Below the pieces are notes generated by a model. That model was not told where the DNA came from and did not search any database. It was given only the letters and a program-made list of their open reading frames with translations. A stretch of DNA of 34,678 nucleotides, taken from Trichomonas tenax. Its lineage: Eukaryota > Parabasalia > Trichomonadida > Trichomonadidae. Every line of letters starts with the position of its first letter. The first letter of the stretch is position 1. Shown here piece by piece: positions 526 to 33,548 of the stretch. The stretch is taken from positions 1 through 34,678 of the forward strand of contig JALKBU010000535.1 of the NCBI GenBank assembly GCA_023091735.1. The letters are read 5' to 3'. A program made the translations under genes and the position numbers.

Positions 526-1305
526 TTAATAAACCCTATACCACCCGTAAACAGTCATGAACGGCGGCATGTAATCAGTACCGTTTCCTGTATTTTGAGT
601 ATTACCGTAAACACTATGCGTATGATTTCCATCATTATTCGTATAAGTATTTCTTTTATAAGGTGCTTTGTTTCTATCATCCCAGAAAATGTCATTAGGA
701 ATCGATATTACATCAGTCATATAATTACTTTCATAATTACCATGATTATAATCAAAATTTGAATAATAAGATGTCATTGAGTGTGTATGATTCCCCGCGT
801 CCGATGTTGTACCCGAAAAGTAGTGATTGTGTGAAGGTAAATTATTTACTGAAATCTTTTTACTTCCTCCTGTTTGATTTGATGAATTAGCGCAATATAA
901 GAAGCGATCGAGTATTTGATTCCATTTACCAAAACCAAATATTTGAGCAGGATTTACATTATTCATTGATGTGTAAATTGAACCAACAGGATAAATTGTC
1001 ATTAATGTTTCATATTTAGAATTTAATACAGAATGCTTTAAATTCATTATTTCAGTATTGAATGTTTGTAATAAATTCCAAACACTAGTTTCAGGATTAG
1101 TTGAAGGTGCATCTGTTCCCAATATCTGTTTAATTATTACATCATCAACTTTAATTTTATTTGCATTTATTGCTGTATTGATTTCATTTAATTTTTCATT
1201 TAATCTATTAATATCTGTTATTTCATGTGTATGTTCTTTACCCGCCTTATTGTTTAATGACTGTTGAACATTGATAATTTCATTATTGTTTTTAATTATT
1301 ACCAT
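526..1305 (-). CDS. Maverick tail-fibre-like protein with phage tail-collar domain
   Basis: This is a 259-aa protein. Residues 1-100 are a short trimer-type stalk with NNKAGKEHTHEITDIN, a heptad-like stretch and a linker. From about residue 105 it carries the phage tail-collar signature: YPVGSIYTSMN, FGFGKWNQILDRFLYC, GGSKKISVNNLPSHNHYF, two later GNHTH motifs, and the closing GTDYMPPFMTVYGWYR. Collar proteins with repeated HxH motifs are receptor-binding or structural tips in tailed phages, and here the gene would serve the virion-like form of the Maverick. It lies 36 bp downstream of the 562-residue fibre/coiled-coil gene on the same strand. The ATG at 1303-1305 and the stop are intact, so it is not obviously broken. 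A diverged second copy of its C-terminal half lies at 22066-22449. Confidence 0.75.
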   Translation of the reverse strand: MVIIKNNNEIINVQQSLNNKAGKEHTHEITDINRLNEKLNEINTAINANKIKVDDVIIKQILGTDAPSTNPETSVWNLLQTFNTEIMNLKHSVLNSKYETLMTIYPVGSIYTSMNNVNPAQIFGFGKWNQILDRFLYCANSSNQTGGSKKISVNNLPSHNHYFSGTTSDAGNHTHSMTSYYSNFDYNHGNYESNYMTDVISIPNDIFWDDRNKAPYKRNTYTNNDGNHTHSVYGNTQNTGNGTDYMPPFMTVYGWYRVY

Positions 1306-9787: not shown

Positions 9788-12700
9788 ATGTCCAAGTCTT
9801 CGATAATTCAGTCCTTATCCAAAGACAGTGGATATCGTTGCATCACCGGATTCTTGTCAGAACTACACAGTAAAGCCGACGTTGAGACAATATTCAACAA
9901 AATCGTTTTAATTATTGAGAATTTGGATATAAATCTGTTTGTTCCTACATTGAAATCAGTTTTTGATTTACTCGGAAAGAAAATTGGTGATATTCATAAG
10001 CAGCAACTTATTTACGTTGCAAATCACTTAATTGAAACTTTCATTAATTACCCGCAGTTCCATTCTCTCGTTTCTATGTTATTTAACTCATTCAATACGA
10101 TTCCTCCCGTTATTTCGATGTTAGAAATCAAAAATTCCCTTTCACTTCTCGTTTTTTCAGATAATACGCTTATTTTCGCTGACGCAAAATTCTATATATC
10201 GAAAAACATCATTCCAAAGTTAGAACCGCAAGACTACGAAAAAATACCTGAAATCGTACTTTACGAACTTTCGAATTTATTCATTCCTGACTTTCAAGTT
10301 CCTGATGTTATTGCGCAAAAGTTGCCGGTGTCGCTGTCGCTATTCGCCGAAGCACCTAGCGCTGACAATAAATTATCACTCAAACTTTCAAATCCTCCGT
10401 TATATGACGTAGTTATTGAAAGTGAGCCGAGAAGCTTAATTTCTTCACAAAATCTCGAGAGGTTATTCAGCTTCTTCCAGGATTTCAATGCTGCACACGC
10501 AGCTTCGTATTTAACCGCAATTTCTTCTTCATCTTGCTCTTTTCGTCAATTTTTCGATACTCTCGAGGAAATGCAGAAGGATAGAGTTGTTTCTTTGATT
10601 ATTACGGCTTTCATTAATCGTGGTGTTGATCCAGCAACAATTGTTAATAATTTAGATCAACCAAGCCTCAAACCGCTTGACAAGGACGGCTGTTCAATGC
10701 TTTTCTCATTCCTTTCGTCAATACCAAAGTCAGAGAACCAAAAAATTGATGCTTATCCTTTCGTTATTCCTTGGAATAATACACGCGCGCAATTGGAATT
10801 TTTATTCTACATTACAAATACTCATTCATGCGTTACATTCAGCAACAAATGCAAAATGATTCCAAACGAAGTATTAAACAATATCAATTTAGATTCAAAC
10901 AACTGCTGGGCCTGCATCGATTTAGTTGAAAGATTTATCGAATTAGCGAACATTTACCCGAAGGATGCCAGTCCATATCTTCAGTCTGCCGTTCAGAAAA
11001 ACGGTCCTGTGATGATTTTCTCTCTTTCTCAAGTCAAAGAACAAAACACGAAAGAATATATCGACTTCATCAATTATATCTTCAATATGATCCTGTTTTC
11101 ACAGATCGGAAACAGCAATTTCTTCGAAGAATTTTGGAAATATTCATCAAAATTCTGCACAAGAGCGATTTTCTTATTCGCAAAGAACTCATCACAGAAG
11201 TTGACCAAAGTTGCAGAAACATTCTCAGCGCATCTTAAAGAATTACTCGATTCTGATAATTTAGAATTTTCAATCGACCTCGCTTTCAATGTTACGATCA
11301 AGGACTCGATAAACATGGACGAGTTTATCGATTCACTCGTCGCAAAATGCGGACAAGACATTTTGATTACATTTTTGCAAATTATTAAAGTTCGTGCTTT
11401 AGAAAGTCAACCAACATCGATGCAAGTTTTCATTGCCACACTTAACTCCGTCTTCAGATGGCTTTCAAATCATTTCACAACGCTTAAAACAGAAACTCAA
11501 TTACTCGCCAACGCTTTGTATTCGATATGCGAAAGTATCGGCAACGGAATACAGAAATTCAACTTCGCTGAGCATCTTCCAGCAGTCAATCCTCCAGATG
11601 CTAAACGTGCTCCTGCTGATTACTTTAAACAATTCGTTTCAGGTGAGATCACATTAGATAACGTCCTTCTTTTTTTCCACCAACTCAAGGCTGTCAACAA
11701 CCAAATTTTCGAATCGATGATTCATTATTTGCTCATGGAGCTTAATTACATGGGCTCTCATGACACAAAGTTCGCTACAAAGATGGGAGAACTCGTCGGC
11801 AATATGGTTTTAGAGAATTTATTTGGAGAATCACAACTTACAACAATTTTCTCGACATTCCACAAAACTTACTCAGAAGAAGTTGATCCTCCTCTTCTTT
11901 CATTCTCTTCGACTGCTTTGAACATCTGCTACATGCGCCTTACGAAAATCCCAATTTACGTGTTTAATCTTACAAAACAGCCGCAATTCAAGCAGCGTGA
12001 GCCGCTTCTCTTCAAGAACCTCAAGAAGATATCGAATCTCTTATCAACACCAATACAGCTCTCTCAGACGAACAAAATCAACATTCACGCGAAGATTCGT
12101 CGCTTCGAGAAACTCGCTCAGCCTCCACCACGTCTGCGCAAGATTCTGCAGAACTTGAATGCAGAGACAGAGCCTCTCGATCATTTGCTTCAGTCATTCC
12201 AAGGCTACGTTGACTGGCTCGCCTTGCATCTTGTTGAAGACATCGAAGATCACCCAGCAATGCTCCACACGTTCCTCCCATACTTCCTTCAGAGCAGGTT
12301 CTTCTCAGAAGTCATCATTCAGGCCGCTTCCTTCGAAGTATACAACCTTGTCGATAAGTCCAACGATATCGCGACATACGAAGGAGGATTCAAGCGCCGA
12401 CGCCTTTCTATTCTTGGTAGATTGATCGGTAATCTCACATTTGCACAAAACCGCCCATTGCTCGCCAAGTACATCGATATCAAGAGACTTCTTCTCTATG
12501 CATTGGCGCACGGAAAGCTTTTCGGTGTTCTTCCATTTGTCAGTGCAGTTTTATGTTGCGCCAACAGTTTCTTCCAGCCGCCAAACCCATACATGAGTGG
12601 TATCCTTCAAGTCCTTGCCAGCATCAACAGCATCGATCTCTTGAAGCTTTCCATCAAGAACCAGATCAGCTTAATCATGTCGCACTTCAATGTTACATCA

Positions 12701-15460
12701 TCTCAATTCATGCTGATTCCACTTATTCCAGACTTCAGTGAAGGAAACTTCGACTTCATCACGGCACCATTCTCTCTTATCTACGTCATGCCGCAGGCTG
12801 AGATCGACAAGATCATCTGCTTCGATGATTCCGCTTTCCACACACTAGCAAGCCAGCACTTCATTGTTCCAGACTACGATGGCCCTAATGCTGAAGAGAA
12901 GCAGATGAAATTCCGCGATGCTCTCACAACAGTGACACTTTCATTCCTCAAACAAGAAGGAAAGAGTCTTTCTCAAGTTGCTGCTTCAACAGCTTCCGAG
13001 CTCATCATGAAGGACTTCGTTATCTGCAACAACTCGCAATTGATTTACCAGACTGCAGAGACACTCACTAAGCAGTTGAGTGCAAGCCTTGCAATGTTTA
13101 CAGTCTTCCAGAAGCAGCAGATCTACTTGCACCACAACGTCCAGCACGAGCTTCCACCAGAGGACTCTGACTGGGCTCTTCAGGGTGTTCAGAGCAACCA
13201 CAACTGGATCGGACAGCTCCTGAAGGATATAGTTTACCTCAAGGCATGGAAGACAGTCCAGAAGAACCTCTCAGACTTTGAGCAGCAGAGGAAGGACTCC
13301 CACAGCACTCGTCATCAGGATCCAATCCCGCAGAAGATTCAGCACATCATCCCACCATCGATTCTTCCAACAGAACAAGGTTTGCTGCCACAGCATAACA
13401 CCATTTACCAGGACCTTGCAGAGTTGGCACTCAACCCAGCGCAAATCCCAGTGATCGACAAACCACCGGAGAAGTATAACAAGTCCATCGAAGCCTTCGA
13501 GTCATTCTTCGCTTGGGTTTCCAAGAGAATCTCCAATGAGACATCCGCAGATGTCCTCAATGAACAGATTCAGTCATTGCTTCAGATGGTCTTCGATAAG
13601 ATCCCTGATGTCGGACCAAGCTTCGAGAGCTTCATGAGCCTCATCAGAACAATGATGAAGTACATGTACAAGAACAACCACAGAATCAACGATGCAGTCT
13701 TCTCAAAGATTCTAGAAAAGATCGTCAGCGATGCGCAGCCTGGTTATGTCACAAGAATGCAGCCCCTCATCTTCTCATGGCTCAGGAACTTCATTCCAAG
13801 TGTTACACTCGTATGCGCATTCCTCAAGACCAACTTACTCACAACGAAGCAACTTGACAGATTCTTCTTCGATCAGTTGAACAGGCAGCCGTTCAATGGC
13901 CGTTTGTTCCTCTTCGCGGTCAGGTTCTTACACCAAACACTCGTCGAGAAGCCTCCGGACATGATCAAGTCAATTGATTTTATCAAACCGAGTGACATGA
14001 TCGACTCCATCTCCTTCGTTGTCTCGACTCCACAGTCTTTGATTGAATCAATCTCACCACAGACACAACCGTTCTCTCTCGATGATCTCCAGAAGGTTTT
14101 AGACAACATGGACGTCCCACTGAATGTTCTCTCAACAAACAGCAAGCTTCAGAACGTTTCATTGTTCGACCCAGTCGAAGAGCTCGCTGGCTTGGATAAG
14201 ATCCAGGCAACATTTGCTGAATGGAAGATTCTAGCCGAAAACGTTACCATTGATGGATCATCATCTGATGGCTCAATGATCATCGACAAGACAACAGAGT
14301 GCGTTGACTTCGGCCGCAACTTCTTCGTTTATCTCTTCTACAGCGAAAGCGAAGAAACTATCAGCAAATTCCTTGCATGCGTCTTCCACTCCAACTTGTT
14401 AGACAACTGCTTCACGGCAGCCATCGAAGCCATCGAACTTGTTATTCAGGGCAACGCCAGTGTTATCAGCTTCGATATGCGCAAATACTACGAGGTAATC
14501 ATCAGGCTCGTTACAGCATCAGTCAACACACCACGTCTCATCAACATTGCTGCGATGTTGCACAATCTCAGACCTCTCCAAGCTCCATCATTTACATTCG
14601 CTTGGACACAGCTCATCACGCATAACCATTTCGTAAGTTATCTCATCGCCAACATTCCAGATGCAATGAAGATCCTCATCGAGGACTACACTGTTTCTGC
14701 AACATACTTACAGGGCGCTCACACACCGGAGGCATTCGATGTCTACTATAGATCACTCCTTAGATTTATATTGATCTTAGTCCATGACTTCCCAGAGTTC
14801 ATGAACTCTATCGCGTTAGAGGTTGTTTCATTGTTTGGATCCCACTTCACACAGCTCCGCAATATCTTCTTGAGTGTTGTTTCTTCGAAGCCACCAAGCA
14901 TCAGCAGTGATCCACACACATTCGATCAATTCACGCCACTTGTTCAGCCTATGCCAGAGCTTTCCAAGGAGCTCGATTTCGACTCAATCATCGCTGGTAA
15001 TGAGGAAGCTATGCGCAAGTTCATACAGGCCGTCGAAAAGCGCTCCGGAACAACAGCGTTAACATCGTTTGTTGTCTACTGCATTAATAAGAAAGAAGGA
15101 AAAGTTTTAACACAAGTTTTGACATCACTTGTTGACAAAGCACCACCAGAGACGTTAATCAACGTTCTCCATGTATTCTTTGATCAGCTCCGCACTCCAG
15201 GACGTGTTACATCCGCATTCATAAAGATCCTTATGTCGCTTGTTTCACGTCCGAAGATTGACGAGCTTATCCTCATTATCGCTGTCGAGAGGTTCTCACC
15301 ACCACCGCCACAGCCATGGGGCCTTCTCGTTTTCGTCAGGATGCTCGTCTTCGACAAGGAGATCAACATCAGCGGAAGGAAGTTCATCGCTGATTGGCCA
15401 GAAGCACGCGAGTTCATTGACGCAATGAAAAAGTCAATCGAACAACAGATGCAAGCATAA
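9788..15460 (+). CDS. CCR4-NOT complex scaffold subunit NOT1 (CNOT1-like)
   Basis: This 1890-aa protein is the platform of the cytoplasmic deadenylase complex, joining CAF1/CCR4, CAF40 and the NOT2-NOT3/5 module for mRNA poly(A) shortening. Residues 1-700 are helical repeats. The MIF4G-like CAF1-docking domain is at about 780-970, with LGRLIGNLTFAQNRPLLAK, IDIKRLLLYA, GKLFGVLPFV and FQPPNPYMSGILQVLA. A DUF3819/CAF40-binding region is at about 1040-1180 (VAASTASELIMKDFVI...LTKQLSASLA). The NOT1 C-terminal domain ends in PQPWGLLVFVRML...FIADWPEAREFI, matching the family's final HPWGLL block. Length is typical (about 2000-2400 in animals and yeast). The stop overlaps TAAA. The first third uses more A/T-ending codons than the rest. 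It is divergent from TBCB and alone in its unit. Confidence 0.93.
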   Translation: MSKSSIIQSLSKDSGYRCITGFLSELHSKADVETIFNKIVLIIENLDINLFVPTLKSVFDLLGKKIGDIHKQQLIYVANHLIETFINYPQFHSLVSMLFNSFNTIPPVISMLEIKNSLSLLVFSDNTLIFADAKFYISKNIIPKLEPQDYEKIPEIVLYELSNLFIPDFQVPDVIAQKLPVSLSLFAEAPSADNKLSLKLSNPPLYDVVIESEPRSLISSQNLERLFSFFQDFNAAHAASYLTAISSSSCSFRQFFDTLEEMQKDRVVSLIITAFINRGVDPATIVNNLDQPSLKPLDKDGCSMLFSFLSSIPKSENQKIDAYPFVIPWNNTRAQLEFLFYITNTHSCVTFSNKCKMIPNEVLNNINLDSNNCWACIDLVERFIELANIYPKDASPYLQSAVQKNGPVMIFSLSQVKEQNTKEYIDFINYIFNMILFSQIGNSNFFEEFWKYSSKFCTRAIFLFAKNSSQKLTKVAETFSAHLKELLDSDNLEFSIDLAFNVTIKDSINMDEFIDSLVAKCGQDILITFLQIIKVRALESQPTSMQVFIATLNSVFRWLSNHFTTLKTETQLLANALYSICESIGNGIQKFNFAEHLPAVNPPDAKRAPADYFKQFVSGEITLDNVLLFFHQLKAVNNQIFESMIHYLLMELNYMGSHDTKFATKMGELVGNMVLENLFGESQLTTIFSTFHKTYSEEVDPPLLSFSSTALNICYMRLTKIPIYVFNLTKQPQFKQREPLLFKNLKKISNLLSTPIQLSQTNKINIHAKIRRFEKLAQPPPRLRKILQNLNAETEPLDHLLQSFQGYVDWLALHLVEDIEDHPAMLHTFLPYFLQSRFFSEVIIQAASFEVYNLVDKSNDIATYEGGFKRRRLSILGRLIGNLTFAQNRPLLAKYIDIKRLLLYALAHGKLFGVLPFVSAVLCCANSFFQPPNPYMSGILQVLASINSIDLLKLSIKNQISLIMSHFNVTSSQFMLIPLIPDFSEGNFDFITAPFSLIYVMPQAEIDKIICFDDSAFHTLASQHFIVPDYDGPNAEEKQMKFRDALTTVTLSFLKQEGKSLSQVAASTASELIMKDFVICNNSQLIYQTAETLTKQLSASLAMFTVFQKQQIYLHHNVQHELPPEDSDWALQGVQSNHNWIGQLLKDIVYLKAWKTVQKNLSDFEQQRKDSHSTRHQDPIPQKIQHIIPPSILPTEQGLLPQHNTIYQDLAELALNPAQIPVIDKPPEKYNKSIEAFESFFAWVSKRISNETSADVLNEQIQSLLQMVFDKIPDVGPSFESFMSLIRTMMKYMYKNNHRINDAVFSKILEKIVSDAQPGYVTRMQPLIFSWLRNFIPSVTLVCAFLKTNLLTTKQLDRFFFDQLNRQPFNGRLFLFAVRFLHQTLVEKPPDMIKSIDFIKPSDMIDSISFVVSTPQSLIESISPQTQPFSLDDLQKVLDNMDVPLNVLSTNSKLQNVSLFDPVEELAGLDKIQATFAEWKILAENVTIDGSSSDGSMIIDKTTECVDFGRNFFVYLFYSESEETISKFLACVFHSNLLDNCFTAAIEAIELVIQGNASVISFDMRKYYEVIIRLVTASVNTPRLINIAAMLHNLRPLQAPSFTFAWTQLITHNHFVSYLIANIPDAMKILIEDYTVSATYLQGAHTPEAFDVYYRSLLRFILILVHDFPEFMNSIALEVVSLFGSHFTQLRNIFLSVVSSKPPSISSDPHTFDQFTPLVQPMPELSKELDFDSIIAGNEEAMRKFIQAVEKRSGTTALTSFVVYCINKKEGKVLTQVLTSLVDKAPPETLINVLHVFFDQLRTPGRVTSAFIKILMSLVSRPKIDELILIIAVERFSPPPPQPWGLLVFVRMLVFDKEINISGRKFIADWPEAREFIDAMKKSIEQQMQA

Positions 15461-16886: not shown

Positions 16887-17432
16887 TTTTTTTATTTTGT
16901 TTATAAACATATTTTTCTGTTTTGATTTTCTAAATCTGTACAATCAATCAATAGACCAATTTCATTAAGAAAAAAAGTGATTTTTTAACTCTATATAATC
17001 ATTTTAGTCAATCAACATAAATTAAAATTCATTTTCCCTCGAAGATATTAATCTTGTTTAAACTTTGTGATTTATAATGTTTTAGTTCTACAACCTAATA
17101 CAATATATTAATAAAAATCATGCAATAGTTTATACATAAAAATAAATAAGATGTTGCTATGTTAGTATGATATATCAATTGCAAAACTTTTTTCTATACA
17201 AGTAAATTTTTATTGATGGTATTAATCATCAATAAATTGGTTATCATAGAGTTAAATAAAAAATCAATACTGATAAATATACTCTATATGAAGTGCTCCA
17301 TTGTTGAAATTAATATGGAAAATTAAAATCAAGTAAAAAGTTAGTTTTCATTGAATTTTTGGCATTGGTAAAAAACAAGTTTTTAGATGAGAAAAATTTA
17401 ACTATAAAATAAGATTTGGTCAATTGGAGCTG
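16887..17432. other. Intergenic region CKK / RhoGAP gene
   Basis: This is very AT-rich. It has a perfect 10-bp inverted repeat (TTTATTGATG at 17209-17218 and CATCAATAAA at 17227-17236) with an 8-bp spacer. There is no gene, RNA or copy of the 13-mer. Confidence 0.55.
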
Positions 17433-19382
17433 ATGAACCATATAGAGGAGGAATGTTACAAGCGTTCCATTAAATTAAAAATCAAATTTACAAGATTGGA
17501 AAATAAAAAAGTGAACGATGATAGTTTTCTATTCTTTGACATTTTATTCAAAAATCTGACACGTAAATCACTTTTTGCAATATACAATACTATCGAAAAT
17601 TCTCAAAAGTGCCAAAATTTAATGGACGAAGATTGCATCTCCTACTACGCATATTTCGATCAGGAGTCGCAGACTTACTACTACTTCAACAACCAGACTC
17701 AGGAGACTGTCTGGGAGTATCCAACCGATGGAGATGTGCTAGATCCGAAAACCGGAGACCTTTTCCCGAACCCGGAGGCTGAAAAGGAAGAGGAGGAGGT
17801 GGTAGAGGAGGTACCTAAGAAGACCGAAGCGCTAACGACTGGAATTAAACAACCTATGACGCAAACTTCCACGAACGCAAAAAGAGGACCGCCAGAACCA
17901 TTGTTTCGACGCCAAAGATGCTCTACACTCATTATAGATGGTGGAAATAGTAGCGGTAGTTTCCAATTGGATGTTCCTGACGTTGTTCTCAAATACGATC
18001 CAAAATATCACAGAGCGAACGCTAAGGGTCTTGTAATTCCATCTGAACAATATGGGAAGCCACAAAAATCTACAAATGATATGACAATAGAGCAAAAATT
18101 AGAATATTTAGATAAAGTACGTAATCACTCCTTCGATCAGCCCGCAAAGAGAAAGGCGCTTCAGAGTTTGACAGGAGAAAACAGTGTGACATATATGGAA
18201 TCGAAAATACGTGAAAGCGCTAGTGGAGGAATTGCTCTTCAAGATTTTGCGCGTAGACACTTCAAGAAAGCCCACAGAGGACTCACACGTCAACAGGTGC
18301 CGATAGACACACTGACATCATACGAAACAGACTGCATCTCGGAGCCTTTGCTGAACAATCTTCCTGATAATCTTCATAAGTCCGCTGTGAAGATGTTCCA
18401 GTACATCCTCGAGTATACAGGTGCAAACGGAAAGAGTCGTAATGAAAATGCTGCTGTTAACTTGGTCAGAATGATTCAAAAAAAAGAAAAACTGATTGAT
18501 GAATTATTCTTCCAACTCGTGAAGCAAACCAATGGAAACCCTAATAACGACATTCTCGGATACACGTGGGAGCTGTTCTGCATCGTTGCGACAATCTTCC
18601 CGTGCAGCAAAGATGTTGAAGTATGGATTCAAGCACACATTGCATCATCGATCTCCAACGAGGACACCAAGATCCGCCTTCTGACAACATTCACCTACAT
18701 TCGCTTCACTTCGAGATGCTCGACAGGCGAAGTAAAGCAAAATATTACTGACGCTTACATCAAAGAAATACCAATCCATTACCGTGCGACAAATCTCACA
18801 TTTGGCGTCTCTCTTTATGAGCTAATGTGGGGACAGCGTCGCGTCATGCCTCAGGTCCCACTCCCATATTTCCTCGTTCAAATTGTTCGTGCTCTGATCG
18901 ATGCTGGCGCTTTCTCTCGTGAGGGTATTTTCCATATTACGGGCAACATTAAGATGGTCAACGAACTCGAGCATGCGATTAACATGGGCGATGTCGTTTT
19001 AGATACTGCTGATGTCGACGACCTGGCCTCCCTTCTCAAGCGTTTCTTCAGAGAGCTCGTTGGAAGAGTTGTTCCGCAGTCTGAAATCAACTACATGATT
19101 CAGGCGATCAAAGATGGGACAGCTGTTGACTTTGCTGCCGATTTACCACCAGTCAACATGATGACTCTTGGATATCTTGTTGGATTCCTTCAGGACTTAG
19201 TCAAGCACCAGAATAAGACTCACATGAGTTTGAAGAAACTCACTGCACTCTGGGCACCAAACATCATGCAGGAAGACTTAAAGAATCCAAGCAATGTTTT
19301 AATTGCTGAAAAGTTCCTCGAACAACTCATTGAGAACTGGGATGTATCTGCTATATATCCTTTCAAGGGACAGCTGCTGTAA
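17433..19382 (+). CDS. WW-MyTH4-RhoGAP protein (ARHGAP39/Vilse type)
   Basis: The product is 649 aa if it starts at ATG 17433. ATG 17622 is an alternative, because the DNA before it is AT-rich and the codons turn host-like after it. Domains: WW at about 70-98 (AYFDQESQTYYYFNNQTQETVWEYP), an acidic then basic linker, MyTH4 at about 270-440 (LLNNLPDNLHKSAVKMFQYILEY...LGYTWELFCIVATIFP), and RhoGAP at about 456-636. This order is that of ARHGAP39/Vilse, which links microtubule-binding MyTH4 to Rho-family GTPase control. In the GAP domain the Arg-finger position is His (GIFHITGN, codon 18933-18935), while the LLKRFFREL lysine and arginine and the WAPNIM asparagine remain. The first WW tryptophan is Tyr. 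GAP activity may therefore be weak or lost, leaving a scaffold or GTPase-binding role. The family call is strong; the activity inference is moderate. Confidence 0.9.
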   Translation: MNHIEEECYKRSIKLKIKFTRLENKKVNDDSFLFFDILFKNLTRKSLFAIYNTIENSQKCQNLMDEDCISYYAYFDQESQTYYYFNNQTQETVWEYPTDGDVLDPKTGDLFPNPEAEKEEEEVVEEVPKKTEALTTGIKQPMTQTSTNAKRGPPEPLFRRQRCSTLIIDGGNSSGSFQLDVPDVVLKYDPKYHRANAKGLVIPSEQYGKPQKSTNDMTIEQKLEYLDKVRNHSFDQPAKRKALQSLTGENSVTYMESKIRESASGGIALQDFARRHFKKAHRGLTRQQVPIDTLTSYETDCISEPLLNNLPDNLHKSAVKMFQYILEYTGANGKSRNENAAVNLVRMIQKKEKLIDELFFQLVKQTNGNPNNDILGYTWELFCIVATIFPCSKDVEVWIQAHIASSISNEDTKIRLLTTFTYIRFTSRCSTGEVKQNITDAYIKEIPIHYRATNLTFGVSLYELMWGQRRVMPQVPLPYFLVQIVRALIDAGAFSREGIFHITGNIKMVNELEHAINMGDVVLDTADVDDLASLLKRFFRELVGRVVPQSEINYMIQAIKDGTAVDFAADLPPVNMMTLGYLVGFLQDLVKHQNKTHMSLKKLTALWAPNIMQEDLKNPSNVLIAEKFLEQLIENWDVSAIYPFKGQLL

Positions 19383-20577: not shown

Positions 20578-20635
20578 CTGAACGTTTAAAATTTTGATTT
20601 TTAGGGCTTGCTGGATTTATTGAGGGTCAACTAAG

Positions 20636-20835
20636 AAGCAATATCATATACAACAAGGATTTGATTATGATGCTGATGGTAAAACCAAAGTTGCAATTTG
20701 TTATCATCAAGAAAGAAAAGTTAAAATTAATCATAAAACAAAAGAAACGGAAGAAGGGAAATGGTTGAATATTGATGTTTTTAAAAAGGTTTGGTTCTAC
20801 AACAGTTTCACAGGAAAGACAAACCAAGACCAAAT
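20636..20835 (+). pseudogene. Fragment of AIG1-like GTPase gene (C-terminal repeat region)
   Basis: Reading plus, this stretch encodes QYHIQQGFDYDADGKTK followed by VAICYHQERKVKINHKTK. That is nearly identical to the middle of the C-terminal half of the intact GTPase at 23434-24723. Similarity continues with small gaps through a GGTTCTACAACAGTT-like part and CAGGAAAGACAAA, then stops. It has no G domain, no start and no CNIA tail. It is in opposite orientation to the intact gene about 2.8 kb away, so it is a dispersed, dead piece of a local or genome-wide family. Confidence 0.85.
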
Positions 20836-21779: not shown

Positions 21780-22065
21780 TAAACCGGCAAGTCTCCAGCC
21801 TTCGGCCTCTGACTTCGCCTAAGAAATTCCAGGGTCTCACCCCAGGAAAAAACTGGCAAGCTGCCTGCCTCTAGCTTTTGCCGAAGATACTACGTGACAA
21901 ATGTAGCGCGTTACATGTCAGATTAAATACCACTCATATTAACTAATAAGTTTTATAAATTACATGTAACAATGTAACATACTATACAGTATTTAGACCG
22001 GGGAACAGACCTTTTTCTGGCTCCGCAAGCCGGCAGAACATTCCGTTGAAGCAGAACATTTATCC
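21780..22065. other. GC-richer unexplained patch inside the inverted repeat
   Basis: Around 21783-21900 the base composition becomes clearly richer in C and G (CCGGCAAGTCTCCAGCCTTC, GGTCTCACCCCAGG, CTGCCTGCCTCTAGC), unlike neighbouring intergenic DNA. An ACATGT-containing palindrome-like TTACATGTAAC follows at about 21960. I recognise no gene, and the patch leads into the tail-fibre remnant. Confidence 0.4.
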
Positions 22066-22449
22066 AACTGTGGATTTGGTACATGGACACAAATCGTAGA
22101 TAGATTTCTGTATTGTGCTAATAGTAGTAATCAAACTGGTGGTTCTAAAAATATATCTATTAATAACTTACCAGCACATAACCATTATATTAATTTAAAC
22201 ACTAATAATAGTGGAAGTCATACACACTCAATAAGTAACAGAGGTTATTTCAGCTGCGATAGTGGCAGTAAACATACAATTTCGCGATTTGATATTTCAA
22301 TCGATCCCAGAGAGTATAACACAGGTTTGAACATAGATGAAGCAGGAAATCACTCACATAACGTTAGTGGCAATACTTCTAACACAGGTTCCGGAACAGA
22401 TTACACGCCACCGTATATTACTGTGTATGCTTGGTATAGAACTGATTAA
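22066..22449 (+). pseudogene. Maverick tail-collar fibre remnant (second copy)
   Basis: Reading plus, it encodes NCGFGTWTQIVDRFLYC, NSSNQTGGSKNIS, NNLPAHNHYI, repeated SHTHS and GNHSHNV motifs, and the closing GTDYTPPYITVYAWYR before a stop at 22447-22449. This parallels the last half of the fibre protein at 526-1305, including the collar W-x-QI-x-DRF and HNH motifs. The stalk and the YPVGSIY start are missing, and the upstream sequence is unrelated, so it is a truncated remnant of a different, diverged Maverick insertion. Confidence 0.85.
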
Positions 22450-23433: not shown

Positions 23434-24723
23434 TTAAGCAATATTGCAAACTGTCTTATGATTGTCTTCATAATGTATATCATAATGTTTAACAATTTTT
23501 TCTGTTGGCTGATTGGCGTTTTCCGGCATCGGCAATTCCTTTTTTGTATCAGGAACCTCTTTATAATCTCCATAGCTCTTAACTCCATCAGGACTGATTG
23601 TAACATCTCTCACCATCTCGTATTGATACAATGACATTTTACCTTCAGCATTCTTTTCATAGCTTGTCTTGATTTGTCTTTCCTGATTAACTATTGCAGA
23701 ACCAACTTTTACTATCTTTTTAGTGCTATCAATATTAGACCATTTGCCTTCTTCCTTTTGTTTTGTTTTATGATTAATTTTAACTTTTCTTTCTTGATCA
23801 TAAAAAATTGCAACTTTGGTTTTACCATCAGCATCATAATCAAATCCTTGTTGTATATTATATTGATTCTCAGTTTTTTCTTCTATTACTGTCTGAGAGT
23901 ACTCGGTAGTAGTTTCCCATTGAGTATAATAAGGCTGGACATTTGGTTCATTAGAAATGATTTTATAGCGCCTGCGATTAATGAAATTCTCTATGAAATT
24001 ACCAGGATTTTCTTTATCTGGGAAAATTCCTAGAGAAACGTTGAATTCTTCTTCTAGCTCCTTTGTATATCCAATGTGAGCATCTTCTTTAAATTCCTTA
24101 GGATTCATTTTCTCTTTCATTAATGACCAGCCAAGGAAATTCGTAACATTCTTCTGTACAAATTCCTTATCGGGTTTTGCACAATTAACATAGTAAATGG
24201 GGATTTCTGGTATTTCGGTTTCACCAGATATTTCCGTTAGGTAATCAGTGAGGATTTTTTTATACTCCCTGTTTTTAACAGTTCTGTCGGGATAATTCTG
24301 ACTAGAGAATGTGAATATAATGCATATATGAGAAATTACTTGCTTTCCCAAGGCATCATAAACAAATTTAATCACATCTTTTACCCCTTGAGTGAATCTG
24401 TTAATCTGTGCTTGTATGACGATTCCGATTGCATTGATCCCTCCTTTATATTTCTTCAACATTAGGGCAAGTTTGCGAATCTGATCATCTGTGAGATTTA
24501 TACCATCACCGAAACCTTCAGTATCGATAACAATTCTTTTTATGCCATTTACAACATTATAAGAGGCCCTTGGTTCATATGTACACGGTTCTGGTAAGTT
24601 ACTTTCTTGAAATGATTTCTTTTGTAGAAATAGGTTGCCGACTGAGCTCTTACCAGATCCTGTGTCACCTATAAACATCACAGTTACTTCTGACTCTTGT
24701 GTGCTATCTCCTTCGGTCGTCAT
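23434..24723 (-). CDS. AIG1/GIMAP-like GTPase with C-terminal repeats and CaaX-like tail (copy A)
   Basis: This 429-aa protein has its G domain at about 13-215: P-loop GDTGSGKSS (19-27), G3 DTEGFGDG, then the AIG1 conserved box INAIGIVIQAQINRFTQGVKDVIKFVYDALG. A clear G4 (TKxD) is not seen; the place reads FTFSSQNYPDRT. The C-terminal half has three related beta-rich units around YKIISN...YYTQWETTTEY, VAIFYDQERKVKI...KWSNID and RDVTISPDGVKSYGDY. The protein ends in CNIA, a CaaX-like tail. AIG1 GTPases act on membranes by nucleotide-dependent assembly; the tail suggests prenyl anchoring instead of a membrane helix. It is divergent from copy B with 237 bp between the ATGs. TTCATTTCTATAA just before the ATG resembles an Inr. 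Confidence 0.85.
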   Translation of the reverse strand: MTTEGDSTQESEVTVMFIGDTGSGKSSVGNLFLQKKSFQESNLPEPCTYEPRASYNVVNGIKRIVIDTEGFGDGINLTDDQIRKLALMLKKYKGGINAIGIVIQAQINRFTQGVKDVIKFVYDALGKQVISHICIIFTFSSQNYPDRTVKNREYKKILTDYLTEISGETEIPEIPIYYVNCAKPDKEFVQKNVTNFLGWSLMKEKMNPKEFKEDAHIGYTKELEEEFNVSLGIFPDKENPGNFIENFINRRRYKIISNEPNVQPYYTQWETTTEYSQTVIEEKTENQYNIQQGFDYDADGKTKVAIFYDQERKVKINHKTKQKEEGKWSNIDSTKKIVKVGSAIVNQERQIKTSYEKNAEGKMSLYQYEMVRDVTISPDGVKSYGDYKEVPDTKKELPMPENANQPTEKIVKHYDIHYEDNHKTVCNIA

Positions 24724-24960
24724 TTATAGAAATGAAGTCAATTTTGTTTAAACAATTTTGGGCTTTGAGATTTTAAATCCCCCACAAAAATGCAATCTTT
24801 CCATCAATATATGTATTGAAAATGTTGGTACCAAGTAATATGTATTGAGCACAATATCGTTGAAAATTTGAAACTGATAAATTCTCCAAAGCATTGAAAT
24901 TTTAGTTGGAGAAATTTTGTTTTATTTTCATTTCTTTTTTATAAGAACGCTTCAATATAT

Positions 24961-26181
24961 ATGAATGTTTCAACAATCATAGCTATTGGAGATACAGGTA
25001 GCGGAAAATCCTCATTACTGAATGCAGTACTTGGTATTGAGCTAATTGAAACATCTGATTCCCCAGAACCTTGCACAAAAGGACCTGCATCATTTTCTTC
25101 CATATTTGGCGATAAGAAGCTAATTGGTATCGACTCCGAGGGTTTTAATGATGGCCAGAATAAAATAGAGGTGCAGATTCAAAAGCTTGGAGATTTTCTT
25201 AGAAGTTGTATGACAGGAGTCAATGTTATTGCGGTGGTTATTCAATACCAGCTCTGCAGATTCTCACAAGGAGTTATGAATACCATTAAGTTTGTTTATG
25301 ATACATTTCACACGAATGAGATGTTATCACATTTCTGCATTGTTTTCACACATTGTCCGTCAAATTGCGACAAAATCGTTAAGGTGAAGACCTACAACGA
25401 GGAAGCAAAAAAATTCTTACAACAGATATCAGGTGTCACAGATATCCCTGATATTCCAATGTTTTTCGTTCAAACACGAAAGAAACACAAACCAGAAATG
25501 ATCAAAGAGCTTGAAAATATTAGAAACTTAATGCTAAGCAAGTCAGTACTATTAACAAAAGAAGTTTATGATGCACTTTATGGATTCAAAGAAGAAATCC
25601 AAAAAGAAAAAAAAGTTTCTCTCGGTTACTCTTTAAGAGGAGATTACAATTATGAAATTTTCATCGACAGAGAGCGTATTGTCAAGATTCCAAATAATGG
25701 GAGTGAGAGTGAATACTCTGAATGGAAAGAAACAAATCGATACGAGGAGCTCGTTGAAGAGGAAAAGAAAGAGAGAGAATATGAAATTTTTGATGGCTAT
25801 GAAATCGATGGTAAATATAGATATAAAGTCTATTACGACAGATATCGCACAGTCAAATACAATTACCGACTTAATCGCAACACTTATGTTTCGGGTTGGA
25901 CATGGATAAACAGGACAAGAAAGTTTGATAAAAAGAAAGAAAAATACTATGAATATGGTGAAGAAAGAACATTCGATGAAGCTACTGAATCTACCGTGTG
26001 GTATCGAGTAAGTAAAATCAAACGAAAAGTTACAATCAATTTTGATGGATCTAAATCATATAATGATTGGAAAGAATATGATTTTGATTATACTTGGGAG
26101 GATAGAGAAGTCAAAGTCAGACATGTCTATCAAACAAAAACAATATCTAGAGATTCTATCACTATATGTAATATAGCATAA
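24961..26181 (+). CDS. AIG1/GIMAP-like GTPase with C-terminal repeats and CaaX-like tail (copy B)
   Basis: This 406-aa paralogue of the divergent neighbour starts directly in the G domain. P-loop GDTGSGKSS is at 10-18, G3 is DSEGFNDG, and the AIG1 box is VNVIAVVIQYQLCRFSQGV...FVYDTF. The G4 site reads FTHCPSNCDK, with no canonical TKxD. The C-terminal half has three beta-rich units with the pattern Y-x-[VI]-[FY]-x-D-R-x-R-x-VK followed by a W: YEIFIDRERIVKI, YKVYYDRYRTVKY and KIKRKVTINFDGSKSYNDW. It ends ...SITICNIA, matching the partner's last four residues. The end lies 57 bp from the convergent end of the 396-aa gene. It is divergent from copy A but clearly diverged in sequence, so the pair is not a recent duplication. 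TTCAATATAT before the ATG is Inr-like. Confidence 0.85.
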   Translation: MNVSTIIAIGDTGSGKSSLLNAVLGIELIETSDSPEPCTKGPASFSSIFGDKKLIGIDSEGFNDGQNKIEVQIQKLGDFLRSCMTGVNVIAVVIQYQLCRFSQGVMNTIKFVYDTFHTNEMLSHFCIVFTHCPSNCDKIVKVKTYNEEAKKFLQQISGVTDIPDIPMFFVQTRKKHKPEMIKELENIRNLMLSKSVLLTKEVYDALYGFKEEIQKEKKVSLGYSLRGDYNYEIFIDRERIVKIPNNGSESEYSEWKETNRYEELVEEEKKEREYEIFDGYEIDGKYRYKVYYDRYRTVKYNYRLNRNTYVSGWTWINRTRKFDKKKEKYYEYGEERTFDEATESTVWYRVSKIKRKVTINFDGSKSYNDWKEYDFDYTWEDREVKVRHVYQTKTISRDSITICNIA

Positions 26182-28340: not shown

Positions 28341-30635
28341 TTAGAGGAGTGCTCCAGTATCATCTAGTTTGTGGTGTATATCTCCATCGAGATGAATTCC
28401 TTTCTGCCAGAATATCTTGATGACAAAAGCAAGTCCTACAACGAACAAAGCAATGATGAATATCAAAACCCATATCTTCTTGAGATCGGACTCGAAAACT
28501 TGATATTTACCGGCTTGTTCCATCACAGAGATTGTAATGGTGAGCGGATCAAACTGCTCAGTTCTTCCAGAAGATGTTGGGGAGAGCTGGAACTTGAAGT
28601 TTCTGTTCGATGGAACAATTGATTTCCAAACTACTTCACCGAGGTTTCTGTTGAACTGTCGGTTAAGAATAACCTTGTTTTCTGAAGTAATGATGGATTG
28701 CGTGATTGAGCTGCTATATCCATCATCTGTAACTCTTGAGAGGTTAAGCGCATAGTAAGCAACAATGCATGGGTAGTCAAACTTGATTGTTGCATCGGTG
28801 ATGCTCTCATTTGATGGCTTTCCCGTGGGCTTGCAATTATCATCTTTGGCTGCCTCAAATAAAATAATTCCGGGCTTGTATTTGTTCACATATTGGATGG
28901 CAGTTGATGCAGTAAAAGAACAATTTGAATCGAGACTTTCGACAGTAAAGTTGATCTCTATTCCGTCTTTGAAAACACTTGGAACGTATGGAAGTGAAAT
29001 TGATGTGTTATCAGGTGAAAAGACACCTTTAACTTTCGTTCTTTGTGTTCCTTCACGGTTTTCGAGGTACATCAACAAGTGATCAGATTTATTACACTTG
29101 GACTCAACATCAACTTTCCAGCTTTGCGCAGCAACCATTGGTGGTACTTCTCCTAAAAATTTGAATTTATTGTCATTCGGGACTCTGGTGAATGGGTTTG
29201 CTTTAGGTGTTTGATCAATTAAATTCGGATCGACCTTCTTGTTTATGTAAAAAATTTTGATGTTGATTGTTGTTACTAAGCCTCTATATGCATCATCGAT
29301 CTTTTTGAATGTTAGTGTCCAATTACCCTTCATTCTGTCTCCCAAAAACTTGTAGGCGGGAAGTTGGACGTTCTTGATTTTGAGGCTTCTATCCGATTCA
29401 CTCAAAATCTTGAGCTCACAGTCAGTGCCATTGGGTGAGATGAGGTGCGGATTCAGAGATCCGAAGCTGAGTTGTGCACCAGACAATCTGACTTCAGCAA
29501 ACAAAACAGTGCTATCTTCGTTAGCGTCGTTGAAATCGAATGTGTATGACTCTTCGATGTCCATTTTCTGCGCTTCTGTGTCCACGTCAACGTTAAAAAC
29601 TTTCTCAGTGAAATTAAAACCACCAACTGAAGTCCACTTCTTCGCATATTCTACAGCCTTGCCGAGGTTTAATCTCCCGAATCCGACTCTTCTGTTAAAC
29701 TTGAGTCCGAAGCTATTGCTGTCCCACAACAAAGAGTCTGGTTGGACGATATCCGCAGTTAAAGCAGTCATGAACATCAAATCTGGAATCGTGAAATCCT
29801 TGTTGATGCCGAGAAGAACCGCAAGACCACCAGCATATATCGCAGCAGAGGCATTGGGCGTTGTAAAGTTCTTCATTTCATAATCTGGCGAAATCGCTGC
29901 GCCAGGTATTGCCGCACGATCAGCAACTGGACAAGCCATGAATATTCCAGATCCTTCACTGCCGTGATCGAGCGGGAGGCCTCTGTTGTTGACGCCTGCA
30001 ATCGTGAAAATCAAAGGCCAACGAGCTGGCGGCGAAAACAAGACATCTGATGCTTGATTGTGTTCAACAGGAACAACAATCGGTTTTGGCTTGTTTGTAC
30101 CAGTGGGGCTGTATAGGCACTTCGCAATCATGTCCTCCTTGAGAGAATCCGGTTCTGGATAAATGCAGAATCGAGATCCAAGGCAAAGATCGTATTGATA
30201 TGAAAGAATCGCAATATCCCATTTGTTGCTATCGTAGCATGCAACGTATTGAAGGGATTCCGCTTCAGTTGAATTGTCGAAAAAATAATATGAGCCAACA
30301 GTAGCTCCAGGTGCAACTCCCGTGAAGTTCGGCATGCATTTTCCTCCCGCAGCGAGTGCGAGTGATGATTGCGAAATATTATAGCTGTAAGAATTATTTA
30401 TCGCTTCTGGGGGCGAATCTATTCGACTTGTCTTGAAGATGTTGATGAAGAGCGCTGAGTTGGCACGTCCTTCATAGGATTTATGCGATATATTCGCTCC
30501 GTCGCCCATTGCAACGATTGTGACGCCTTCTCCTTTCTCTTCTCTGTCAAAAGTCCAGTTTATGTCCTCCCCGGGTATTCCCAGTTCGTAACTTCCGTCA
30601 TTTTGGATCCACCACGTCGCAATTAAAGAAAGCAT
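28341..30635 (-). CDS. Kexin/furin-like S8 family protein, catalytic His lost (pseudo-protease)
   Basis: The 764-aa start is at ATG 30633-30635; an upstream in-frame TTG is not used. The catalytic-domain fold is at about 1-300: WWIQND...GIPGEDINW and a GVTIVAMGDG strand with Asp45. The oxyanion region reads PVEHNQASD, and the Ser site TPNASAAIYAGGLAVL has Ser263. The expected HGT-x-x-A motif is replaced by NISQSSLALAAGG (86-98), so no catalytic His exists. A P (Homo B) domain follows at about 360-460 (SYTFDFND...VRLSGAQL...SPNGTD...GNWTLTF), then Asn-rich lumenal or extracellular sequence, one membrane helix near 715-740 (IWVLIFIIALFVVGLAFVIK) and a short cytosolic tail. No pro-domain is present. 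Kexins cleave secreted precursors; this one likely binds rather than cuts. It sits 45 bp downstream of the DDB1-like gene. Confidence 0.85.
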   Translation of the reverse strand: MLSLIATWWIQNDGSYELGIPGEDINWTFDREEKGEGVTIVAMGDGANISHKSYEGRANSALFINIFKTSRIDSPPEAINNSYSYNISQSSLALAAGGKCMPNFTGVAPGATVGSYYFFDNSTEAESLQYVACYDSNKWDIAILSYQYDLCLGSRFCIYPEPDSLKEDMIAKCLYSPTGTNKPKPIVVPVEHNQASDVLFSPPARWPLIFTIAGVNNRGLPLDHGSEGSGIFMACPVADRAAIPGAAISPDYEMKNFTTPNASAAIYAGGLAVLLGINKDFTIPDLMFMTALTADIVQPDSLLWDSNSFGLKFNRRVGFGRLNLGKAVEYAKKWTSVGGFNFTEKVFNVDVDTEAQKMDIEESYTFDFNDANEDSTVLFAEVRLSGAQLSFGSLNPHLISPNGTDCELKILSESDRSLKIKNVQLPAYKFLGDRMKGNWTLTFKKIDDAYRGLVTTINIKIFYINKKVDPNLIDQTPKANPFTRVPNDNKFKFLGEVPPMVAAQSWKVDVESKCNKSDHLLMYLENREGTQRTKVKGVFSPDNTSISLPYVPSVFKDGIEINFTVESLDSNCSFTASTAIQYVNKYKPGIILFEAAKDDNCKPTGKPSNESITDATIKFDYPCIVAYYALNLSRVTDDGYSSSITQSIITSENKVILNRQFNRNLGEVVWKSIVPSNRNFKFQLSPTSSGRTEQFDPLTITISVMEQAGKYQVFESDLKKIWVLIFIIALFVVGLAFVIKIFWQKGIHLDGDIHHKLDDTGALL

Positions 30636-30653
30636 TAAAAAAATAAAAATTGA
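30636..30653 (-). promoter_or_regulatory. Inr-like start element of the kexin-like gene
   Basis: Minus-strand TCAATTTTTATTTTTTTA runs straight into the ATG at 30635. It fits the TCA-start, T-rich Inr pattern loosely and lies within the 45-bp gap after the DDB1-like stop. Confidence 0.5.
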
Positions 30654-30680
30654 CAAATTTTTCGAAAAATAAAAAAATAT

Positions 30681-33548
30681 TTACAAATATTCAATGGATA
30701 TTTTTCCAATAGATTCGATTACACGCGTTCCTTCTTCTGTTGCAGCTTCTTCTATATCATCAGCGCATGCATAGTTGAATGCTGATTCGCTACAGAAGTA
30801 TGGAATGACTGCTGCGGCAGAGATAGATTCTTCATCCATTTTAGATGAAATGCTGGAAACAATTCGTTTGTTTGTCACGCAGAGCAAATATATGCTTCCG
30901 CAGATTGTTGTGACAGCGAATGTTTCTGAAACATTCTCAATAGACTTCACAGGAGTCCATGGGACGATTGATGAAATGCATTCTCCGAAAGAGAAAAGAG
31001 CGTCAGTAATCAAAGCTGTTTCGCCAGCTGACTCTCTGAGGAAGAAAACTCCACCGCTAATGTCGCATGCAATAACGCCATCTTTACAGAACTCAGCGCA
31101 GTTGAGCTGCTTGGAGTTGTAGTCAACTTTGGAGAGAACTATTGGACTTACATGGCTGTCGTAGACTGCTGCTGACTTAAATATATCGGCGACAAGGAAC
31201 ATTCCGTCTTTGGCCTTCATTTCAACAGCAAGCATCATGCCATCCTTCTTGTTCTCTGGATTAAGTGTCAAACCTCCTGCAGAGTCCTGGTTGACGTTGA
31301 TGACATGGAGTGATGAACCAGCAGCGACGACAACTTTCTTATTCGAATAAGAAACTGCTGTGGCATCGAAATCAAAGTTAATCTTAGCTAGATAATTAAC
31401 ATTCTCTCCATACTCGAAGAAGCATGCCTCACCTTTGCCTGTTTCCTTAAAACCAAGTGCGACAACAATATAATAATGACCATTAATCGAAAAAGTTGTC
31501 ATTCCATTTGGAATTAATGTGTTAACTTCAGCTCTCAAGTGTTGCTTGTAAGAGCACTGAAGAGCATAGTTAACACTGTTGAAGAATGAGAGACCATATG
31601 TGTTGCTATCAACAGACAAGACAGCAATTGTTTGATCATCAAGAACATTAACGCTTCTGACTTCTCCTTCTAAATTCATTCTTGCAATTTCGATGACGTT
31701 TTCTTCTTGAAGAACAATCTGAGAATAACTTCCGTTTCTGATTATGACAACATAATCATTAAAGTCATGAGCAGTGACACATGGAGAGATTCCGCATGGA
31801 TAGAAATCAATACTATCGGCATTAAGTTGTGCAATGCCTGGTTTATCACCAGCAACAAAAATTCCTGGACGACTATGGAGTGATGTGAGGTTGATTGGTG
31901 CCAATCCGCATCTTACTCTCTTAACATCATCGAACTTGTTATCTTTGAACATTGCAGAGAAAACATATCCACTGCTTGTTCCAACCCAAACATTACCCTC
32001 TGCAACTAAAATTGAGCGAACGACAAATGGTGAAGAAATTGGAGAATTCAATGTTGATACAACTTCGCCAGTTGTAACATTGTATGCAATAATTGAGTTG
32101 TTAGACCATGCCGAAACAAATAGTGTGTCGTTATCGAGAGCTAAGCAGCTAGTTTCACCTCCAACATCTATTTCTTTAACAGCATTAATGGATGATGCTA
32201 TTTTATAAACTTTGACAATTGATGTTCCAGGGGATGAAACTGCAACTTTGTTGGCGAAAATTGTGGCATGTTGAACTTGAATATTCTCTAAAACGGAGTC
32301 CTTCGAAATGATCGAGTTCTCTGTAACTTGAATTCCATCAGCTGCTGCTTTCGTTCTTACATTAGTCTTTAAATAAGGAATTTGATTACTTGTTGATTGC
32401 GTGAAACCTTCCCCAGTGATGACAAGTGACCCATCGACAGTGAATGCACGCTCGACTTGAACAGAAGCACCATTTGTCTCATCAGTTTTAATTCCCAAAC
32501 CATAAACAGAGATGAATGAAGGATTTCCGTGCGCTGCAATCAAAGCTTCAGCGTTTTTAACTGTGTGGGCGGTTTTTGTGGATGTAATGAATAATGCAGG
32601 ATCCTGTGTTGTTGCTGATTGTGATCCGGTCTGTGTTTCAATTAATGTCGGTGGATTATATTTCAAATGCGTTAAAATGAAATCTTGGTTAATAAATATT
32701 GCGTTTAATGGGAATGAAACTGATATTTGATGTTTCTTCGTTGTGTTATAGATAATGTAGTTCCTAAATCCGATTGCATATGAATTTTCGAATAATGTAA
32801 CAAATAATGGAACTTGTTCTGTATTTAATTCAATTATTTCTTTCTCATTCAATTTTCCATTATCGACGTTATAAATTTTAAGCTTTGATTCTTCGAAGCT
32901 GCAAATATTTTCATTAATAAAGAAAATATTTTTGCCTTGTAATTCAGATATTTTGGTTGTTATACCATCATTGTATCCTATTGTTGAATTTTCGAATGAA
33001 TCAAGCTTAATTTCAAGAACTTTTAGTTTATCTGTGCTGACAAATAAACTATTTCCTATGCAGTGCATTTTAAGTGGAACAAAGGCTGTAAAGTGAATTT
33101 CTTTGACAACCAATGTGTCGCCTGGTGTAATTAAGAACAATGATGTTGGATAAAGAGAAACAAAAATATATTTTCCGCCAGAAGCGATGATTGGAGCATT
33201 TTTAGTTGGCTTGATTCCTTCATGGCGCAATTCTGTTGACGTAAGTGATGTGATCTCATCATTCTCGAACCATAGAAGCGAGAAAGAAAAATCTGACGCG
33301 ATATAAGCGATTCTTTGCGTTTCCCACGACGCGTTGGAGACAATATGTGCGCTAATTATCGATTTTTTGACAGGTGCAGAGCTTTCTAACTCGATTTTAT
33401 TTGTTTCATTTTCGAAAGAATAAACATCGATCGAGTGAGTCTTGACTTGGATGATATCGTCGGAATCAGCAGCAAGGACATGTCCCTTTGTGAGGAAAAC
33501 GACGTGTCCGGATTGCTTCACTGTCTCTGATAAAAGTCCAGAATCCAT
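30681..33548 (-). CDS. DDB1/CPSF160/SF3B3 (MMS1) family beta-propeller protein, most like DDB1
   Basis: This 955-aa protein is made of WD40-like blades without strict WD motifs. The N-terminus reads MDSGLLSETVKQSGHVVFL. A middle propeller has GGETSCLALDNDTLFVSAWSNNSIIAYNV. The C-terminal CPSF-A region (about 640-900) has the order expected for DDB1: HLRAEVNTLIPNG, a VVALGFKETGKGEACFFEYG turn, LAKINFDFDATAVSYSNKKVVVAAGSSLHVI, then GMFLVADIFKSAAVYD, FCKDGVIACDISGGVFFL and TTICGSIYLLCV. Members are DDB1 (adaptor of CUL4 ubiquitin ligases), CPSF160 (poly(A) cleavage) and SF3B3 (splicing). Length and the GDLMRS-like segment favour DDB1, though the protein is shorter than human DDB1 (1140). A good Inr precedes the ATG, and the stop reads TAAAT. 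Confidence 0.8.
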   Translation of the reverse strand: MDSGLLSETVKQSGHVVFLTKGHVLAADSDDIIQVKTHSIDVYSFENETNKIELESSAPVKKSIISAHIVSNASWETQRIAYIASDFSFSLLWFENDEITSLTSTELRHEGIKPTKNAPIIASGGKYIFVSLYPTSLFLITPGDTLVVKEIHFTAFVPLKMHCIGNSLFVSTDKLKVLEIKLDSFENSTIGYNDGITTKISELQGKNIFFINENICSFEESKLKIYNVDNGKLNEKEIIELNTEQVPLFVTLFENSYAIGFRNYIIYNTTKKHQISVSFPLNAIFINQDFILTHLKYNPPTLIETQTGSQSATTQDPALFITSTKTAHTVKNAEALIAAHGNPSFISVYGLGIKTDETNGASVQVERAFTVDGSLVITGEGFTQSTSNQIPYLKTNVRTKAAADGIQVTENSIISKDSVLENIQVQHATIFANKVAVSSPGTSIVKVYKIASSINAVKEIDVGGETSCLALDNDTLFVSAWSNNSIIAYNVTTGEVVSTLNSPISSPFVVRSILVAEGNVWVGTSSGYVFSAMFKDNKFDDVKRVRCGLAPINLTSLHSRPGIFVAGDKPGIAQLNADSIDFYPCGISPCVTAHDFNDYVVIIRNGSYSQIVLQEENVIEIARMNLEGEVRSVNVLDDQTIAVLSVDSNTYGLSFFNSVNYALQCSYKQHLRAEVNTLIPNGMTTFSINGHYYIVVALGFKETGKGEACFFEYGENVNYLAKINFDFDATAVSYSNKKVVVAAGSSLHVINVNQDSAGGLTLNPENKKDGMMLAVEMKAKDGMFLVADIFKSAAVYDSHVSPIVLSKVDYNSKQLNCAEFCKDGVIACDISGGVFFLRESAGETALITDALFSFGECISSIVPWTPVKSIENVSETFAVTTICGSIYLLCVTNKRIVSSISSKMDEESISAAAVIPYFCSESAFNYACADDIEEAATEEGTRVIESIGKISIEYL

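Follow-up and report, generated by a model that had tools for sequence, protein, structure and literature searches.

The window, that is, the whole stretch of 34,678 nucleotides analyzed here from Trichomonas tenax contig JALKBU010000535.1, carries two intact open reading frames for AIG1-type GTPases that are arranged head to head, with their start codons 237 bp apart. A preliminary description made from the sequence had pointed to such a divergent pair, with both proteins ending exactly in CNIA and neither containing a membrane helix, and each of these observations was borne out. The features of the locus are as follows.

23434..24723, minus strand: AIG1-type GTPase gene of the minus-type clade, 429 aa, C-terminus CNIA
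24961..26181, plus strand: AIG1-type GTPase gene of the plus-type clade, 406 aa, C-terminus CNIA
23434..23448, minus strand: CaaX box CNIA and stop of the minus gene (TGC AAT ATT GCT TAA)
26167..26181, plus strand: CaaX box CNIA and stop of the plus gene (TGT AAT ATA GCA TAA)
24724..24960, no strand: intergenic stretch of exactly 237 bp between the two start codons
24730..24735, minus strand: Inr-like TCATTT, putative +1 A at 24733, 10 nt upstream of the minus ATG
24928..24933, plus strand: Inr-like TCATTT, putative +1 A at 24930, 31 nt upstream of the plus ATG
25567..26118, plus strand: C-terminal part of the plus protein, residues 203-386; the prediction is a long beta meander in which a unit of about 48 aa repeats

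The minus protein ends in HKTVCNIA and the plus protein in ITICNIA, and the two are 38-39% identical over the part that can be aligned. No membrane helix is evident in either protein, with the highest mean Kyte-Doolittle value over 19 residues reaching 1.51 in the plus protein and 1.20 in the minus protein. Each gene is preceded on its own strand by one copy of the Inr-like TCATTTCT, at the distances given above. Two back-to-back core promoters are likely rather than proven, because so short a pattern is expected, by our own estimate, to match about 1.5 times per strand by chance.

Several other features share the window. A CCR4-NOT scaffold NOT1-like protein of 1890 aa occupies a single open frame at 9788-15460 (plus strand), and is followed at 17424-19382 (plus strand) by a 652-aa protein that has MyTH4 and RhoGAP domains plus a WW match too weak to reach its cut-off. 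On the minus strand are a frame at 28341-30656 whose sole match is a proprotein-convertase P-domain (2e-4) and, at 30681-33548, a propeller protein of the RSE1/DDB1/CPSF1 type. Two frames, at 526-1305 (minus strand, 4e-22) and 21997-22449 (plus strand, 9.7e-14), match PF21939, the C-terminal domain of phage baseplate protein Gp10, and the second of them also matches a PHROG tail protein (1.1e-14). By sequence similarity, both are phage-tail-like domains within a eukaryotic contig.

Membership of the pair in the AIG1 family (PF04548) is indicated by matches with E-values of 2.8e-14 and 2.8e-11, at 53.4 and 43.6 bits relative to a Pfam cut-off of 27. The G1 P-loop (GDTGSGKSS) and G3 (DTEG or DSEG) are present, and G10, G13, G15, K16, S17, D58, E60, and G61 are invariant across 23 sequences. 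A canonical G4 of the form (N/T)KxD is absent from the aligned stretch, which reads FTFSSQ or FTHCPS in the pair and FTKC in some outgroup members. The G4 element of animal GIMAPs is degenerate as well, and for this reason its absence was not counted against AIG1 membership. Also invariant in the 23 sequences is R100, which aligns with the Arg of LGRYT in GIMAP7, the conserved-box Arg103 of that protein.

An AlphaFold2 model of the plus protein (mean pLDDT 83.9, pTM 0.57) contains a G domain whose best fold match is GIMAP7 (3zjc, E 3.8e-11), followed by GIMAP2. The GIMAP-type helical segment that folds back after the G domain is absent from this model, in which a single helix (178-193) is followed only by strands from residue 209 onward. 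Because the C-terminal half is predicted to lack this segment, we file the pair as AIG1-domain proteins and not as GIMAPs. When the C-terminal 204 residues were modeled alone, with full-length relatives as the alignment, they formed a meander whose strands reach 28 residues in length (pLDDT 91.0, pTM 0.53). The plus protein contains an internally repeated unit of about 48 aa (score 72, equaled in 0 of 500 shuffles); the corresponding figure is 1 of 500 for the relative P0004 and a nonsignificant 67 of 500 for P0014, and a third copy is not supported. No confident PDB match was obtained for the C-terminal half, for which the flat beta rods of staphylococcal SasG/Aap came closest (E 0.009). Our guess from the model is that this half may form a stiff spacer. 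The tail of the plus protein has pLDDT values below 50 at 19 of its last 20 residues in the full-length model (387-398 and 400-406), and is drawn as strands with values of 65-77 in the model of the C-terminal part. The two models thus disagree on the exposed and flexible tail that is expected of a CaaX protein.

Among the AIG1 loci found in the organism's own genome (53.4 Mb in 1528 contigs, of which this contig is C1013), the pair is the only intact set. Broken or partial copies lie on C110, C589, C1017, C1520, and C1140, and these locus counts are lower bounds. A degraded 174-bp remnant within the window (20627-20800, plus strand), beyond which the frame is broken, matches the minus AIG1 protein at residues 283-340 with 74% identity and is probably what is left of a third AIG1 copy.

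Three protein searches, which gave 13, 14, and 26 hits, identified proteins of Trichomonas vaginalis and Tritrichomonas musculus as the closest named relatives of the pair. Two of these searches returned four TVAG-named AIG1 proteins, where a plant survey puts the number for T. vaginalis at two (PMC12845241). A tree of 31 rows was then built from the two window proteins and 29 of 34 fetched sequences, and because the last 30 residues had been cut from every protein, the tail could not shape it. The two window proteins fall in separate starred clades, one of the plus type (six rows, 100/99) and one of the minus type (nine rows, 100/100). Cys at position -4 occurs in nine of the 31 rows, all within these two sub-clades and in none of the 16 rows elsewhere. 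The ends are CNIA in both window proteins, P0001, and P0014; CYIA in P0002 and P0004; CLLI in P0006 and P0018 (TVAG_226530); and CRII in P0028. At least five changes of state are required.

Homologues without the Cys were among the findings that, according to the preliminary description, would refute its idea, and here the outcome is mixed: nine of the 15 sub-clade rows carry the residue, but six do not. Four of these six (P0015, P0016, P0017, and P0019) end instead in short hydrophobic or amphipathic tails, with mean Kyte-Doolittle values over the last 15 residues of 1.69, 0.03, 1.34, and 1.47, respectively, and the P0016 tail is amphipathic with a moment of 0.50. A fifth, P0034 (TVAG_226520), has the hydrophobic end KRDWFSLYIILYLV, and the end of P0003 is odd. 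The minus-type rows share a stem before the terminus, which reads VVVVKKGG before CLLI in P0018 and VVIVKKHGG, IIINKRSGG, and VVIKKKSGG before the hydrophobic tails of P0016, P0017, and P0019. This common basic-GG hinge is the strongest hint that two kinds of anchor may occupy the same position and do one job.

Another motif, approximately G-[WFH]-[TS]-x-x-[YF] and located a few residues short of the C-terminus (e.g., GFTSGYQRVIS), is conserved in 14 of the 16 outgroup rows, namely P0007-P0009, P0012, P0021, P0025-P0027, P0029-P0033, and P0035, with Cys at -3 in P0025 and P0033. Since these rows keep an end without Cys at -4, the C-termini of the outgroup seem to matter too.

The tails of Cys-bearing members were compared after alignment from the right end. 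Ten tails were used, including two own-genome remnants that end in NCYIA and GCLLI and excluding P0001 (86% identical to the plus protein); the presence of Cys in all ten is no result because the tails were picked for it. Position -2 holds only I or L and position -1 only A or I, and pairwise identity from -5 to -30 is 0.00-0.16. Between the window plus protein and P0001, identity is 89% before the last 29 residues and 52% in the 25 residues before the box, and the box itself is identical. From the composition of the available proteins, the probability that a given protein has Cys at -4 together with I, L, V, or M at -2 is 0.0033, and the probability that it ends exactly in CNIA is 2.1e-6. The proteins are related, and we therefore neither multiply these per-protein values nor claim a combined p. 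Both members of the pair have Cys at -4, an aliphatic a2, and a permitted X at the very C-terminus; their a1, Asn, is not aliphatic.

The same boxes recur in the genome. CNIA followed by a stop (TAA or TAG) is encoded at 17 sites in the 53.4 Mb and its reversed pattern at seven, and the corresponding figures for CYIA are 15 and 33, so that its raw count is not enriched. An open frame of at least 60 codons precedes six of the 17 CNIA sites and seven of the 15 CYIA sites, but only one of 21 sites for NCIA, the one permutation used as a control (Fisher p 0.003; 0.012 when the three AIG1 frames are set aside). The 13 CNIA/CYIA frames include the AIG1 pair and the broken AIG1 copy on C110 (L073), and a Pfam search covering all but L064, L073, and L085 identified three Ras-family GTPases (PF00071), which end in CCNIA (L067), CYIA (L074), and CCYIA (L080). 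Ras-type GTPases are classic prenylation substrates, and thus the boxes of the AIG1 pair also end classic substrates in the same organism. Among the remaining seven frames are one of 83 codons that lacks ATG (L064), one of 67 aa (L085), and one for an ankyrin protein (L083). The other four, which encode a cyclophilin (L054), two protein kinases (L059 and L081), and part of an Hsp70 (L071), also end in CNIA or CYIA and are candidate CaaX proteins.

The genome also encodes beta subunits of farnesyltransferase and geranylgeranyltransferase. The prenyltransferase beta family (PF00432) has nine matches, and none in 14 prokaryote controls. When four of the nine were compared with PDB sequences, two were nearest to farnesyltransferase beta, one to GGTase-I beta, and one to RabGGTase beta. 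Alpha-subunit repeats were found on four contigs. There are also four Rce1-like matches and three ICMT matches, one of which contains a TGA, but as proof of CaaX processing these are weak, because the same families match 11 and five of the 14 controls, respectively.

Taken together, the CNIA ends, which exceed what chance would produce, are most simply explained if the two AIG1 GTPases are prenylated and their C-terminal anchor is exchangeable, and on sequence grounds it is highly likely that both proteins are prenylated. The preliminary description had proposed a farnesylation-type CaaX box kept by selection, and this proposal draws support from the homologues, the Ras-family GTPases with the same boxes, and the transferases, whereas the six Cys-less rows temper it. 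Because the two genes are adjacent paralogues, their ends could be alike merely through recent copying or conversion of the gene ends, with no function attached. However, three of the four CNIA codons differ silently between the genes, which speaks against a recent copy, the pair falls in separate well-supported clades, and CNIA or CYIA recurs in four homologues (P0001 and P0014; P0002 and P0004) whose upstream tails are different. We regard this explanation as scarcely credible.

Two further possibilities concern what the kept end does. It might be a short protein-binding or S-acylation motif instead of a prenylation site, as could be argued from the polar a1 of most members (N, Y, or R) and from the other end kept by the outgroup, which indicates that AIG1 C-termini can be conserved for different reasons. 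The X residue of a CaaX box governs the choice between farnesyltransferase and GGTase-I, and the restriction of X to A or I would divide the members between these enzymes; this pattern, the Ras-family GTPases that bear the same tetrapeptides, and the hydrophobic tails that take the place of the box in relatives make a binding or acylation motif very unlikely. It is also unlikely, though it deserves somewhat more consideration, that the box is prenylated but neither cleaved nor methylated, a "shunted" CaaX as in yeast Ydj1 that would give a weak or protein-directed anchor. The nonaliphatic a1 would suit such a fate, and PMC9231725 sets canonical motifs apart from shunted ones; neither CNIA nor CYIA occurs in its main text. 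According to the same source, the box of yeast a-factor is CVIA, which is both farnesylated and cleaved. CNIA shares the a2 (I) and X (A) of that box, which argues for cleavage, as do the Rce1-like and ICMT matches, though both families match the prokaryote controls.

The prenylated pair with an exchangeable anchor would operate as follows. The Cys of the CNIA box would be prenylated, most likely with farnesyl, since this is the lipid expected for a CNIA-type box from specificities known in other organisms. An Rce1-like protease may then trim the end, and methylation would follow. The lipid would hold the proteins at the cytosolic face of a membrane; judging from their sequences, the pair is probably membrane-held by this tail instead of by a helix. 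G domains may pair through their GTP faces, perhaps between the two paralogues, a guess suggested by the invariant Arg that lines up with the conserved-box residue of GIMAP7, and the beta-rich C-terminal half might space the G domain away from the lipid. The anchor itself would be a replaceable module, since at this position some relatives carry a CaaX box and others a short tail of hydrophobic or amphipathic character. We infer lipidation, trimming, membrane binding, pairing, and the spacer role from the sequences, their conservation, the Ras-type boxes, and the transferase genes, and consider it likely that this reading holds as a whole, from the processed lipid anchor to the pairing of G domains.

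The two paralogues are probably close neighbors in two further species, because P0018 (minus-type) and P0034 (plus-type) have consecutive T. vaginalis tags, and P0002 (plus-type) and P0014 (minus-type) have the same longest contig of 10,265 bases. A bolder idea, which we offer tentatively and with considerable doubt, is that trichomonads have evolved their own membrane-coat GTPase pair. Neighboring paralogues would each contribute a GTPase head, a stiff flat beta stalk, and an exchangeable tip anchor (farnesyl, geranylgeranyl, or a short hydrophobic helix), and would co-assemble on a membrane through their G faces as do GIMAP2 and GIMAP7 or farnesylated GBP1. A clade with CaaX boxes of two kinds or hydrophobic tails offers natural swaps that make AIG1 membrane targeting testable.

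A limited literature search did not turn up any report of prenylated AIG1 proteins in trichomonads. Like animal GIMAPs (1, 2, 5, and 7), the pair has an AIG1 G domain, the fold match, and the conserved-box Arg, and some relatives have a hydrophobic C-terminal end. The earlier statement that animal GIMAPs usually use membrane helices holds for GIMAP1, 3, and 5, which have a C-terminal TM segment, and for GIMAP2, which has a double hydrophobic segment (PMC8201404), but the others have no anchor (PMC8201404; PMC3804274), and according to PMC3804274 no lipidation motifs are known in GIMAPs. Their G domain is followed by a helical segment (PMC8201404), whereas the pair is predicted to be beta-rich and ends in a CaaX box. 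Entamoeba histolytica AIG1 proteins likewise form an expanded protist family and were modeled on GIMAP2 and GIMAP7 (PMC5884625); the words "prenyl" and "CaaX" occur zero times in that paper. Six members were grouped as integral membrane components by GO term (PMC6917348). One protein, EHI_176590, looked cytoplasmic, but it had been tagged with a C-terminal HA (PMC5884625), and a tag in that position would mask a CaaX box if there were one. The clade described here is a warning against assigning protist AIG1 proteins to the cytosol on the basis of C-terminal tags.

Two other groups offer comparisons for the anchor. Human GBP1, 2, and 5 are large GTPases that are CaaX-anchored, although they belong to another G-domain family and have a helical C-terminal part (PMC8565484). 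The plant AIG1/IAN proteins, a far lineage that shares the AIG1 domain by name, include Arabidopsis AIG1 (P54120), which is listed among isoprenylated plant proteins (PMC6866125). In their CaaX ends, the AIG1 proteins described here thus have precedents in the listed prenylation of Arabidopsis AIG1 and in the CaaX boxes of human GBPs.
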